Shown piece by piece: positions 27,456 through 35,285 of a DNA stretch of 43,146 nucleotides (within the stretch, counting starts at the first letter, position 1; every line of letters begins with the position of its first letter). Source of the stretch: Bacillus sp. ISL-55 (lineage in GTDB: Bacteria; Bacillota; Bacilli; Bacillales; Cytobacillaceae); contig NZ_JAGGQU010000047.1 in NCBI RefSeq assembly GCF_018613155.1, positions 1-43,146 of the forward strand, read 5' to 3'. The translations under genes and the position numbers were made by a program. The notes under the pieces were generated by a model. The model was not told where the DNA came from and did no database searches. It saw nothing but the letters and a program-made list of their open reading frames with translations.

Positions 27456-27805
27456 AGTGGATCATCTCCTTAGTTCTTATTTTAAACTATCCTTGTCCAA
27501 AGTAAAGTAAACAAGGAAAAGTTTAGCAAAGATTATTTTTCAAATTCCTATCTTTTTGTTTATATTATATGATGAAATAGCAAAATTTTTCATGGTTATT
27601 GATGGGATGTCATAAATTGTCATTGTTTTGACACAGTTTATCATTTCTTATTTCTGTACACGCACCAGTGAATTTGATAGACTACCGTGATTACTGTATA
27701 TAAATCAAAATGTTGGTTTCTTTTTGTTTTCAAAAAATATTATGAAAAGGGCCATTGGGAAAAAATAAGAAAATACTTTCAAGAAAAGCATCAAAGGAGA
27801 AGATC
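27456..27805. other. AT-rich region between the micro-gene and ykrA
   Basis: No further gene seen. It must hold the divergent promoters of the micro-gene (minus) and ykrA (plus). For the micro-gene, GTTTAC and GGATAG spaced 14 bases apart (minus strand, near 27490-27515) faintly resemble a sigma-B site. Confidence 0.4.
27674..27702 (+). promoter_or_regulatory. Candidate sigma-A promoter of ykrA
   Basis: TTGATA at 27674-27679 and TATATA at 27697-27702 are 17 bases apart. The -10 match is imperfect (4 of 6). It lies about 100 bases before the ykrA start. Confidence 0.45.
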
Positions 27806-28576
27806 ATGAGTAAAATTGTATTTTTTGATATTGATGGTACATTGCTGGACCATGATAAAAATTTGCCGGCCTCAGCTAAAGAGGCGATTGAAACATTGAA
27901 GGAAAATGGAGTTTTCGTGGCTATTGCTACTGGACGAGCTCCATTCATGTTCGAAAGTCTTAGAAAAGAGCTGGAGATCGATTCATTTGTTAGTTTTAAC
28001 GGACAATATGTTGTATTTGAAGGAGAGGCAATCTACCAAAATCCTTTGAACAGTAAAAAGATTGAAGAAATATACCAAGAGGCTTCTGGGAAGGGACATC
28101 CAGTCGTATTTATGAACCACAAGACGATGAAGTCCTCAGTAAAGCACCACAACTACATTGAAACAAGCCTTGGAGGCCTAAAGTTCGCCCATCCAGAACA
28201 TGATGACCGGTTTTATGTAGACCGAGAGCTCTATCAAACACTCTTGTTCTGTGAAGAAGGGCAGGAAGAGTATTACCGGGAAACTTATCCGGAATTTACA
28301 TTTATCAGGTGGCATCCATTTTCAGTGGATATTCTCCCTGCTGGAGGATCGAAGGCGGAAGGTATAAAGAAAATGGTGGAGCGATTAGGCTTTAAGCCGG
28401 AAGATGTATACGCTTTTGGTGACGGACTCAATGACCTTGAAATGCTAAAGGCAGTTGGCACTGGGGTAGCCATGGGGAATGCCGTTCCAGAATTGAAGGG
28501 ACTGGCGAATAAAGTAACCCGAGATGTAGATGACGACGGTATCTGGCATGGATTGAAAGAACTGAAGTTGATTTAG
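27806..28576 (+). CDS. ykrA: HAD-superfamily Cof-type phosphatase YkrA
   Basis: A 256-residue HAD hydrolase of the Cof/type IIB group. Motif I is FFDIDGTLLD, motif II lies in FVAIATGRAP, motif III is the Lys in GGSKAEGIKKM, and motif IV is FGDGLNDLEML. All catalytic residues are present. Such enzymes dephosphorylate sugar phosphates, flavin or PLP; the substrate is unknown. Neighbours rpoY-rnjA and def agree with B. subtilis ykrA. I chose ATG 27806 behind AAAGGAGAAG; an upstream frame from 27755 is unsupported. No terminator is evident before the 52-bp array, so the array may be transcribed from here. Confidence 0.9.
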   Translation: MSKIVFFDIDGTLLDHDKNLPASAKEAIETLKENGVFVAIATGRAPFMFESLRKELEIDSFVSFNGQYVVFEGEAIYQNPLNSKKIEEIYQEASGKGHPVVFMNHKTMKSSVKHHNYIETSLGGLKFAHPEHDDRFYVDRELYQTLLFCEEGQEEYYRETYPEFTFIRWHPFSVDILPAGGSKAEGIKKMVERLGFKPEDVYAFGDGLNDLEMLKAVGTGVAMGNAVPELKGLANKVTRDVDDDGIWHGLKELKLI

Positions 28577-28680
28577 ACCAGAGAAATTCGAGAGTAAGTG
28601 AAACAGGTTCGATGTCAGGTGTCTGATGATGTATTGGTGTGCTTTAGTTATTATGACAAGATGAAAAGGGAAAACGGAAA

Positions 28681-29190
28681 AGCTGTCAAGAAAAGGCTGT
28701 TATTCTGACAGGTTTGAGCCCACCAAGCGAAAAGCTGTCAAGAAAAGGCTGTTATTCTGACAGGTTTGAGCCCACCAAGCGAAAAGCTGTCAAGAAAAGG
28801 CCGTAATTCTGACAGGTTTGGACCCACCAAGCGAAAAGCTGTCAAGAAAAGGCCGTAATTCTGACAGGTTCCAGCCCATCAAGCGAAAAGCTGTCAAGAA
28901 AAGGCTGTTATTCTGACAGGTTCGAGCCCACCAAGCAAAAAGCTGTCAAGAAAAAGCATTTATTCTGACAGGTTTGGACTCACCAAGCAAAAAGCTGTCA
29001 AGAAAAAGCATTTATTCTGACAGGTTTGGACCAACCAAGCGAAAAGCTGTCAAGAAAAAGCCGTAATTCTGATAGGTTTGAACCCACCAAGAGAAAAGTT
29101 GTCAAGAAAAGGCCGTTATTCTGACAGGTTTGGACCCACCAAGCAAAAAGCTGTCAAAATAAGACCGTAATTCAGACAGATTTACATGGT
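28681..29190. repeat. Tandem array of 52-bp hairpin units (9 full, 1 partial)
   Basis: AGCTGTCAAG-like unit starts occur at 28681, 28733, 28785, 28837, 28889, 28941, 28993, 29045, 29097 and 29149, an exact 52-base period. Each unit has arm CTGTCA-A-GAA, a variable 10-base loop and arm TTCTGACAG, then a conserved spacer GGTTTG-ACCCACCAAGC. Arm changes keep pairing by wobble (TTGTCA in unit 9, TGATAG in unit 8). The tenth unit is decayed. The period is not a multiple of three and no reading frame runs through, so it is noncoding. It fills the space between convergent ykrA and def. Confidence 0.95.
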
Positions 29191-29264
29191 GAATCTGGAA
29201 ATTGTCACAACTAGACTCCTAAAAGGCTTTGGCCTTTATTTAATAGAAATAATTCAAGCCATAA

Positions 29265-29296
29265 AAAAGCCGAATCACTCAGGATTCGGCTTTTAT
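29265..29296 (-). terminator. Terminator of def
   Basis: AAAAGCCGAATC and GATTCGGCTTTT pair around ACTCAG, with T-runs available on both strands. It overlaps the def stop codon. Confidence 0.85.
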
Positions 29297-29847
29297 CTTT
29301 CCACTGGCTTTGCATCAGGAACTTCGGCGTATGGATCTAGTTTATTAATGTGGTCGTAAAACATGATGCCATTTAAATGATCGATTTCATGCTGGAATAC
29401 AATCGCTGGCAGGCCTTTCAGGCGAAGTTTGATTTCGTTTCCTTCAAGGTCTGTCCCTTTTACGGTTATTCTTGCATATCTAGGCACATATCCAGGAATC
29501 GACTCATCAACTGACAGGCAGCCTTCACCGGCTGAAAGGTAGGAGCGTTCCACCGAATGGCTGATGATTTTTGGGTTGAAGAGGGCATGGCTTAATACAT
29601 TCTCTTTTTCATCTGTTACGTGAACAGCAATCATTCTTTTCGATACATTTATTTGTGGTGCGGCAAGACCGATTCCGGGACGGAGACCATGTTTTTGGGC
29701 AACTTCAGGGTCCTGGCTGTTTTTAACATATTCAATCAGGCTTTCAAGCATTGCCTTATCTTCCTGTGAAGGAGGCATAGGAACCTCTTCCGCGACTTTT
29801 CGGAGCACGGGATGTCCATCACGGACGATATCATTCATCGTCAACAT
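29293..29847 (-). CDS. def: Peptide deformylase
   Basis: A 184-residue metalloenzyme with all three deformylase motifs: GIGLAAPQ, EGCLSVDE and HEIDHLNG. It removes the N-formyl group from new proteins. The length and insert pattern fit the type II (Gram-positive) group, such as B. subtilis YkrB/DefB, the neighbour of ykrA. An ATG at 29847 follows AGAGGTGAAG on the minus strand. It is a single gene, convergent with ykrA across the repeat array. Confidence 0.96.
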   Translation of the reverse strand: MLTMNDIVRDGHPVLRKVAEEVPMPPSQEDKAMLESLIEYVKNSQDPEVAQKHGLRPGIGLAAPQINVSKRMIAVHVTDEKENVLSHALFNPKIISHSVERSYLSAGEGCLSVDESIPGYVPRYARITVKGTDLEGNEIKLRLKGLPAIVFQHEIDHLNGIMFYDHINKLDPYAEVPDAKPVER

Positions 29848-33908: not shown

Positions 33909-35285
33909 TTGGCATTCCAATTTAAGCTGCCAGACATCGGTGAAGGTATTCACGAAGGTGAAATCGTCAAATGGTTCGTAAAACCAGGCGATAAAGTTCA
34001 GGAAGACGATGTACTTTGCGAAGTACAGAATGACAAAGCAGTTGTAGAAATTCCTTCACCTGTCGCTGGTACAGTCGAAGAAGTATTAGTAGAAGAAGGA
34101 ACAGTAGCAACAGTAGGACAGGTTCTTGTAACGTTCGATGCTCCAGGCTATGAGCACCTTAAGTTTAAAGGTGAAGACGAAGATGCACCTGCTGAACAGC
34201 CAAAACAGGAAAAGACGGAAGCTCAGGTTCAGTCTACATTAGAAGCTGGACAAAAAATTGAAAAAGAAGCGGCAGATACATTTGCTCCTGCAGGTCAAAC
34301 TGGTGCTGGCGCAGCAGCTGCACCACAAGCAGAGGTTGACCCTAACCGCCGCATCGTCGCTATGCCATCAGTCCGTAAATATGCACGTGAAAAAGGTGTT
34401 GATATTCGTCAGGTTGCTGGCTCAGGAAAGAATGGCCGCATCGTGAAGGATGATATCGACAGCTTCCTAAACGGAGGCGCTGCTGCAGCAGCTGCACCTG
34501 CACCGCAAGCAGATCAAGCACAGGCAGCACAAGCTGAGGAAGCACCAAAAGCTGCAGCGGCTCAGGCTATCCCAGAAGGACAATACCCTGAGACACGCGA
34601 AAAGATGAGCGGAATCAGAAAAGCGATTGCTAAGGCAATGGTTAATTCCAAGCATACAGCTCCACACGTTACATTAATGGACGAAGTTGATGTAGCAAAG
34701 CTTGTCGCGCATCGCAAACAGTTCAAAGAAGTGGCTGCAGAAAAAGGAATCAAGCTTACATTCCTTCCTTATGTGGTAAAAGCATTAACAAGTGCATTGC
34801 GTGAATATCCAGCTTTAAACACATCATTAGATGATGCGACAAGCGAAATCGTTCACAAGCACTATTACAATATCGGTATTGCAGCAGACACTGATAAAGG
34901 ATTGCTTGTTCCAGTCGTGAAGGACGCTGACCGCAAATCTGTATTCACTATCTCTAATGAGATCAATGAACTTGCTGGAAAAGCTCGTGACGGCAAGCTT
35001 GCTCCAGATGAAATGAAAGGTGCTTCTTGCACAATCACTAACATCGGATCTGCTGGCGGACAATGGTTCACACCAGTTATCAACCATCCAGAAGTTGCGA
35101 TCCTTGGAATCGGCCGTATTGCAGAAAAGCCAGTGGTCAAGGATGGAGAGATTGTGGCTGCTCCTGTACTAGCGCTTTCCCTAAGCTTCGATCACCGTAT
35201 GATTGACGGCGCTACTGCACAGCACGCTTTGAATCACATTAAGCGCCTATTGAACGATCCAGAACTATTGTTAATGGAGGGGTAA
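33909..35285 (+). CDS. pdhC: Dihydrolipoamide acetyltransferase E2
   Basis: A 458-residue E2. One lipoyl domain covers residues 1-80 with lipoylated K43 in [10 protein letters not shown]. An Ala/Pro/Gln linker follows, then the peripheral subunit-binding domain ([19 protein letters not shown], about residues 152-190). A second Ala-rich linker leads to the catalytic domain, with the active-site motif [10 protein letters not shown] near residue 430. It passes acetyl to CoA and is the core of the complex. The start is TTG at 33909 behind TAGGAGGGTG. The 51-base gap before it shows no terminator. Confidence 0.97.

Follow-up and report, generated by a model that had tools for sequence, protein, structure and literature searches.

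Tandem 52-bp palindrome arrays in Mesobacillus and other genera share a hairpin plan and mostly follow the direction of replication

Introduction

Tandem repeats with a constant unit of 52 nt are in print for Bacillus genomes, M. selenatarsenatis among them, without an assigned function (Subirana & Messeguer 2021, PMC8161180). In the passages of that report on which we draw, the class is stated to lack sequence conservation, the repeats of M. selenatarsenatis are described as common to B. boroniphilus and B. subterraneus, and nucleoid binding or small RNAs are suggested as roles. The repeats of B. coagulans are transcribed and were found in RNA-seq, according to the portion of a second report considered here (PMC8625621).

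Here we describe an array in a stretch of 43,146 nt from Bacillus sp. ISL-55 (contig NZ_JAGGQU010000047.1, positions 1 to 43,146), referred to below as the window. The array is a further member of the 52-nt class. We compared it with its relatives in the same genome, in Mesobacillus and across the order with respect to hairpin structure, constraint, orientation and gene context.

The array and its setting

A sequence-only reading of the window had proposed an exact 52-bp tandem array of hairpin units, and this array is real: Tandem Repeats Finder (TRF) gave 9.8 copies at a period of exactly 52, with 90% matches, 0% indels and a score of 741 (Table 1). The unit consensus is GAAAAGCTGTCAAGAAAAGGCCGTTATTCTGACAGGTTTGAACCCACCAAGC. 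The arms CTGTCA and TGACAG, which had been ascribed to every unit, are found in most of them, the former in nine of ten (TTGTCA in the other) and the latter in eight (TGATAG and AGACAG once each), and the core CTGTC-N19-GACAG is intact in eight. CCCACC, noted earlier as part of a conserved spacer, is not invariant; it also occurs as CCCATC, CTCACC and CCAACC and is missing in the last unit. The decayed end of the array is also present, by eye, as GAAACCGGAAACCTGTCATAA in loci L046 and L047.

Table 1. Features of the array and its surroundings, in window coordinates
Feature	Position	Strand	Basis
52-bp tandem array, forward form AAAGCTGTC...GACAGGTTT, linker purine-rich on +	28677..29183	+	TRF; ten units laid out
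First palindromic unit core CTGTC-N19-GACAG, recurring each 52 bases	28683..28711	+	Sequence; per-position constraint
Decayed array end GAATCTGGAAATTGTCAC	29184..29206	+	By eye
ykrA-like HAD phosphatase gene, 5' of array	27755..28576	+	Longest ORF, true start may be later; homologues found; gene name from the sequence-only reading
Terminator-like hairpin AAAAGCCGAATC...GATTCGGCTTTT, between array and def	about 29263..29296	.	By eye; terminator search, on def strand
def (presumed peptide deformylase), convergent with ykrA	29293..29847	-	ORF; gene name from the sequence-only reading

The array lies between the end of ykrA and an ORF that we take to be def, 5' of a terminator-like hairpin. The closest relatives of ykrA are those of Bacillus sp. 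ISL-37 (98% identity) and M. selenatarsenatis SF-1 (99%), and the source genome therefore belongs in Mesobacillus. The check proposed earlier, a search for the array in close strains, gave a divided answer at this gap: among the 11 closest ykrA-def loci, three carry an array (L046, L047 and L051) and eight do not. The eight gaps are short and end in the same kind of hairpin, so that, by eye, the terminator-like hairpin is retained in relatives without the array.

Two observations concern other parts of these data. The ykrA genes in L049 and L083, from records titled Chryseobacterium sp. ISL-80 and Pseudomonas sp. ISL-84, are 86% and 72% identical to that of the window, and because of this resemblance both records are probably misnamed Bacillaceae. 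A short 24-bp repeat of 2.2 copies at 34494-34546, GCACCGGCACCACAAGCAGAGCAA, is probably the alanine-proline linker of a dehydrogenase E2 subunit, 3' of pdh-like genes (by eye).

Distribution of the arrays

A blastn search of the source genome with the window array gave 67 matches, which, with at most 40 candidates scored, were grouped into at least 38 arrays; this number is a minimum, since a further array type (C1:83463) came to light separately. Each of the 37 other loci has a period of 52, as in the window, the linkers are array-specific, and at least two inner-stem types occur. With the arrays of other genera included, nearly all steps fall at 51-53 bp. As such, the constant length with variable sequence and the several families of equal length per genome that mark the 52-nt class are both found here.

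The core pattern was found in 18 of 21 Mesobacillus genomes, and a longer, stricter pattern in six of 299 genomes of the order, all of them Mesobacillus. In Rossellomorea vietnamensis CH34_1T, locus L124 carries arrays of period 53 with different letters and the same TGTC-N19-GACA spacing, and from this spacing a general pattern was derived, namely three TGTC-N19-GACA units in a row. Across the order, 69 of 397 genomes, belonging to 28 of 132 genera, carried this pattern, including all ten Mesobacillus members of that sample. In a phylum sample of 249 genomes (four from the order, our own included), it was found in our own genome only. A reversed control pattern gave 0 matches in every genome of the four pattern searches, the 21 Mesobacillus and 397 order genomes included, which rules out chance for the pattern matches.

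The presence of arrays is patchy inside genera in the order-wide sample, and their function therefore cannot be essential. Three Mesobacillus members (G012, G017 and G019) have no strict-pattern arrays. Regarding all three as array-less proved partly wrong, as G019 has 48 general-pattern matches (G018 has 118); G012 and G017 were outside the sample searched with that pattern.

The Rossellomorea arrays (L124:2580-2874; L166-L173) form a family of their own, with the core GGTGTC...GACACC and a period of 53, on several contigs. Genome G228 carries, beside TGTC arrays, a 52-bp family that lacks the TGTC foot and is built on a different palindrome (L249:1245-1542, L249:18547-19325, L254:7370-7546 and L242:17581-17732). 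By eye, this foot-less family resembles family 1_52_139 of coagulans as given in the part of PMC8161180 consulted. In G005, a complete genome of another species, three 52-bp arrays (L126, L127 and L129) lie directly 3' of rRNA operons, after the 5S gene; in L126 and L127 one arm is altered (AAAAGTTGTC) and the core used in the strict search is lacking.

Carriage of the arrays by plasmids or phages was considered and set aside, as blastn with the arrays gave no match in either collection. The general pattern did occur in four viral contigs, and in one of these, L235, the match has by eye the look of a true array. On this putatively viral contig (IMGVR_UViG_3300007759_000741), the apparent TGTC array spans L235:3450-3720 with a period of about 52 bp.

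Hairpin plan and constraint on the units

A large subset of the 52-nt class has a common plan, TGTC-N19-GACA, with an 11-bp stem and a 5-nt loop. This plan was obtained from 38 distinct consensus hairpins of 39 arrays in 21 genomes, the arrays being the places listed first, with several from one genome, and not a random choice. Pairs 5-23 to 11-17 are complementary above shuffled arms (p 0.02 to 0.0005 or less), most strongly pair 8-20 (0.95 vs 0.33 shuffled), whereas pairs 12-16 and 13-15 are no more complementary than shuffled arms; this sets the stem at 11 bp and the loop at 5 nt. Covariation was assessed in 22 sequences, one chosen consensus for each of the 21 genomes and one window unit. 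Cells changed on both sides numbered 48, against 19.4 (sd 3.4) in shuffles, none of 500 being as high, and the covariation score was 0.491 against 0.161 shuffled and at most 0.193 in slid controls. The count of pairs altered on both sides (seven) was not above shuffles (6.7), whereas the other four measures were. Among the other-genus loci the TGTC/GACA foot is invariant because the search required it. The rest of the stem differs in its letters between genera and between arrays of one genome (e.g., G280, G191, G205, G408 and G130) with complementarity kept. The Mesobacillus stem has imperfect pairing past the foot, with G.G predominating at pair 6-36.

Constraint is also seen within arrays. 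In arrays of at least five units, with end units left out, the mean within-array mismatch over two genomes was 0.011 and 0.025 in the two core arms, 0.114 between the arms and 0.171 in the linker, and positions 15 and 27 (0.003 and 0.004) are as fixed as the foot. In Mesobacillus, 0.1-0.8% of units depart from their array consensus at the TGTC and GACA positions (interior units taken by phase). The earlier suggestion of selection on structure is thus borne out twice, by stems that covary between genera and by core arms that are some 7 to 16 times less variable than the linkers.

It had also been argued that the array is not a fresh duplication, and we agree: at 27 of the 38 array loci of our genome, G005 has an array at the corresponding place, with flanks mostly 77-93% identical. 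Linkers of 25 such pairs are 57% identical, compared with 39% for other pairs, and the cores are 99% identical, compared with 97%. Orthologous arrays differ widely in copy number (e.g., 13 vs 2 and 4 vs 15 units). Partial conservation of arrays whose length is seldom kept is likewise a trait of the 52-nt class.

The units might act as RNA. On this account the arrays, co-directional with replication, would be transcribed into strings of hairpins held apart by purine-rich linkers, and would serve as protein sponges or as sources of small RNAs, in line with a role put forward for the class by Subirana & Messeguer. The transcription of the B. coagulans repeats (PMC8625621, as noted above from the portion considered) speaks for it, and strong RNA folding is seen for a G160 unit (z -4.67). 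However, for a single window unit, RNA folding does not surpass that of shuffled sequences (z -0.48, and 0.28 for the reverse strand). The entire window array as single-stranded DNA does fold better than shuffles (z -5.7), with arms of different units pairing. Nor did Rfam 15 place the arrays in a known structured RNA family at gathering score: the window region gave sub-threshold matches only at E up to 5, and the matches at 26 other loci were to rRNA, tRNA, T-box and SAM, none on the arrays. Fixed spacing is no obvious need of RNA hairpins.

Arm changes that keep G-U pairing had been noted in the window, where two are indeed of the G-T kind, but a preference for wobble does not extend to more units or genera. 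Among 694 distinct units of two genomes (L037 and L150 left out as unclear), pair 7-35 is T.G in 26 and C.A in 8, and pair 3-39 is A.C in 75 and G.T in 7. In 39 arrays of other genera, stem cells with G.T (85) and A.C (79) are about equal, against the RNA account; a wobble signature of RNA was accordingly rejected.

Orientation along the chromosome

In G005, with dnaA at 334 and again at most 40 candidates scored, the 40 listed loci were examined, of which 38 have intact cores. All 22 arrays before 2.25 Mb run forward and all 15 after 2.7 Mb run backward, such that 37 of the 38 follow replication, the remaining one near 2.27 Mb being without clear direction. In five further genomes (G003, G007, G009, G011 and G020), scored with a profile trained on own-genome units oriented by G/C at two S positions, 97 of the 103 clusters listed (at most 40 scored candidates per genome) fit one switch point per genome, and 96 do so with the switch fixed halfway. 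The six misfits are all clearly reversed by profile score. Two of them (L223 and L226) lie near the switch point, and two more, L221 in G003 and L224 in G020, are one locus in two species (88-90% identical); because this reversed array has been kept in both, a "wrong" orientation can persist.

Genome G122, from another bacterial family, has three arrays before 1.6 Mb opposite to five after 2.3 Mb (8/8), its origin not being located; at two of the eight loci (L230 and L234) local GC skew is weakly positive against the expected sign. In our own genome, assembled as 69 contigs, local GC skew is in accord with the orientation of 32 of 37 arrays, and of 25 of 27 where it exceeds 0.05. The window array is among those that agree, GC skew on the + strand being positive in all seven stretches of the window. 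For other genera, orientation was set by linker purines as a proxy: the purine-rich linker strand matches local GC skew in 29 of 39 arrays, in 21 of 26 with clear skew, and in 19 of 20 where the purine bias is clear as well. In 60 stretches of 20 kb from three more complete genomes, arrays were too few for a polarity count. The purine-rich strand of most 52-bp arrays in these stretches is the locally G-rich one, with at least one exception (G228, 2.0 Mb, 1245-1542).

The purine content of G005 linkers on the leading strand is 0.746, against 0.543 for non-coding DNA close by and 0.511 for third positions of codons, and it exceeds 0.5 in 34 of 38 arrays when oriented by coordinate alone. The core is nearly two-fold symmetric, and it is the free positions that lean to purine on the leading strand. 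Polarity may therefore come from a rule on purines more than from a motif with a direction.

These properties bear on the possibility that the arrays are neutral or weakly selfish satellites, made and homogenised by hairpin slippage on the lagging strand, with template switching keeping the arms complementary and with polarity as a by-product of strand-specific mutation and orientation-dependent instability. A purine bias confined to free positions, copy numbers that vary freely between orthologous arrays and a patchy presence in genera are all in keeping with this explanation. Neutral drift would not, however, spare the same core positions in each unit; linker purine content stands far above that of other sites on the same strand; and an identical foot and length are shared by 28 of the 132 genera sampled. 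We consider neutral satellites unlikely.

Polarity is also pertinent to a further explanation, under which a single-strand transposase, Y1 (RAYT) or another, works on the lagging-strand template and has dispersed the units as REP-like miniature elements. IS200-type elements show a lagging-strand bias, and single-strand transposition would account for the hairpin, the intergenic dispersal and the polarity together. The strongest Y1 matches in G005 and G007 lie on + in the first half of the genome and on - in the second, the leading orientation, as the arrays do. However, Y1_Tnp matches do not track the arrays, which weakens the transposase as spreading agent: G016 and G020 have arrays with no Y1 match, G012 and G017 have Y1 with no strict-pattern array, and Y1 occurs in 8/8 array-rich and 6/8 array-poor genomes of the same genera. 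In addition, the units form long head-to-tail arrays at loci that are old and shared, unlike recent single insertions. We regard this origin as very improbable.

Gene context and terminators

With neighbours called as longest ORFs and named by eye, 37 arrays of G005 comprise 19 in sense tandem, nine convergent, five divergent and four in antisense tandem relative to the array; the corresponding numbers in our own genome are 16, 10, 1 and 7, with three at contig edges. Most arrays thus also run with their upstream gene (28/37 in G005), as the RNA account would have it, and consequently few loci separate replication from transcription. The four G005 arrays that are antisense to both flanking ORFs still follow replication, against that account.

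Among arrays with a co-directional upstream gene, a terminator precedes the array in 15 of 28 (G005) and 10 of 26 (own genome), again contrary to the RNA account, and stands only after it in none and three, respectively. The terminator search found none for the other 13 of 28 and 13 of 26. The arrays of L126 and L127, 3' of an rRNA operon, lie beyond a terminator-like hairpin, also against an RNA role. A string of RNA hairpins read from ykrA, as envisaged earlier, does fit the window, whose array lies 5' of its terminator. That picture fails for the family as a whole, given arrays oriented by replication and the frequent presence of a terminator before the array. For the other roles put forward, as terminator, RNA-decay buffer or recombination site, we found no support. 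Taken together, gene context, terminators and the G.T/A.C balance favour DNA, none being decisive alone. On balance, an element that works at the level of DNA and is linked to replication is better supported than an RNA element of ykrA, and we judge an RNA role for the family to be rather unlikely.

Proposed role

Tentatively, with a probability of about 0.45, we propose that the arrays are a chromosome-wide 52-bp satellite family that acts as DNA, not as RNA of the neighbouring genes, and that may offer a platform to a protein. The observations are that every unit has a palindromic sequence that could fold into a hairpin or cruciform, that its foot is conserved and that its stem stays complementary although the letters differ between genera. 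The period is near five helical turns, the linker is purine-rich on the leading strand and the orientation follows replication. Helical phasing, with about five turns per unit, is plausible, given a period of 51-53 in nearly all steps. A putative DNA-binding protein may read the TGTC/GACA foot of the palindrome, or of a hairpin formed as the fork opens, and could bind many units in register, which would make the array a cooperative platform for chromosome organisation or lagging-strand handling. Slippage or recombination would alter copy number, and selection would preserve the core of each unit.

Several findings weigh against this DNA-level proposal. Polarity is not absolute, six of 103 clusters being clearly reversed; transcription also agrees with array direction at most places; the Mesobacillus stem is imperfect; the B. 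coagulans repeats are transcribed; presence in genera is patchy; and no terminator was found in 13/28 and 13/26 of the cases above.

A bolder and quite doubtful extension is that the arrays are landing sites that form hairpins on the lagging-strand template. Once opened by the fork, they would be recognised at their TGTC/GACA feet, which the duplex spaces by five turns, and the putative dedicated protein that does so would load or guide machinery for replication, repair or segregation. If true, this would amount to an uncharacterised polar signalling system on both chromosome arms, in many genera of one order.

The role of the 52-nt repeats becomes testable because of the shared hairpin plan, the constraint on each copy and the polarity set by replication. 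A published enigma, with constant length, no sequence rule and no function, is thereby turned into questions: which protein reads TGTC/GACA, how well an inverted array is tolerated, and how an array acts at the fork. The patchy spread in genera provides natural pairs of array-rich and array-poor genomes for a search for the reader gene.

Comparison with known systems

CRISPR arrays share regular spacing and, in some types, a palindromic repeat. Our arrays differ in that repetition covers the entire 52-bp unit, the linkers recur instead of being unique, and about 38 loci occur in one genome, and we therefore concur with the sequence-only reading that they are not CRISPR. The KOPS sites of FtsK, the SRS sites of SpoIIIE and Chi are skewed polar signals, purine-rich on the leading strand and running in the same direction along each replichore. 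These are dispersed short words, in contrast to palindrome arrays of period 52.

REP elements of the GTAG and CGTC superfamilies are, in the portions of PMC3733652 considered here, similar in being short intergenic palindromes in many copies, with stems of 8-9 bp and loops of 4-5 nt, and their CGTC tag is TGTC in many repeats, like the foot of the arrays. In contrast to that account, in which the tags are unpaired at one end, the TGTC of the arrays pairs with GACA, and we saw no separate conserved unpaired tag beside the stem-loop. REPs are described there as singletons, dimers and mixed clusters, unlike the long head-to-tail arrays with fixed period and replication polarity, and the association with Y1/RAYT of the GTAG group was not found for the arrays.

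The closest system remains the 52-nt class itself, which, as far as PMC8161180 was drawn on, resembles our arrays in its period of 51-53 nt, several families per genome, mostly short arrays and strain-variable copy number. By eye, the TGTC...GACA plan can be made out in several of its consensus repeats (coagulans 2_52_35 and 8_52_18, litoralis 42_52_9, thermoamylovorans 30_53_11 and alkalitelluris 71_52_7, among those given in the part consulted), whereas other families of the class have no TGTC foot, unlike the present subset. The words hairpin, palindrom- and orientation are absent from the main text of that report, within the part on which we drew, and the open-access literature on 52-nt repeats gave no report of a shared hairpin plan or of replication polarity. 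As far as our searches show, the shared architecture of one subset, the constraint at the level of the unit and the replication polarity are new properties of a published class, and the purine-rich linkers are also new relative to the consulted part of PMC8161180.
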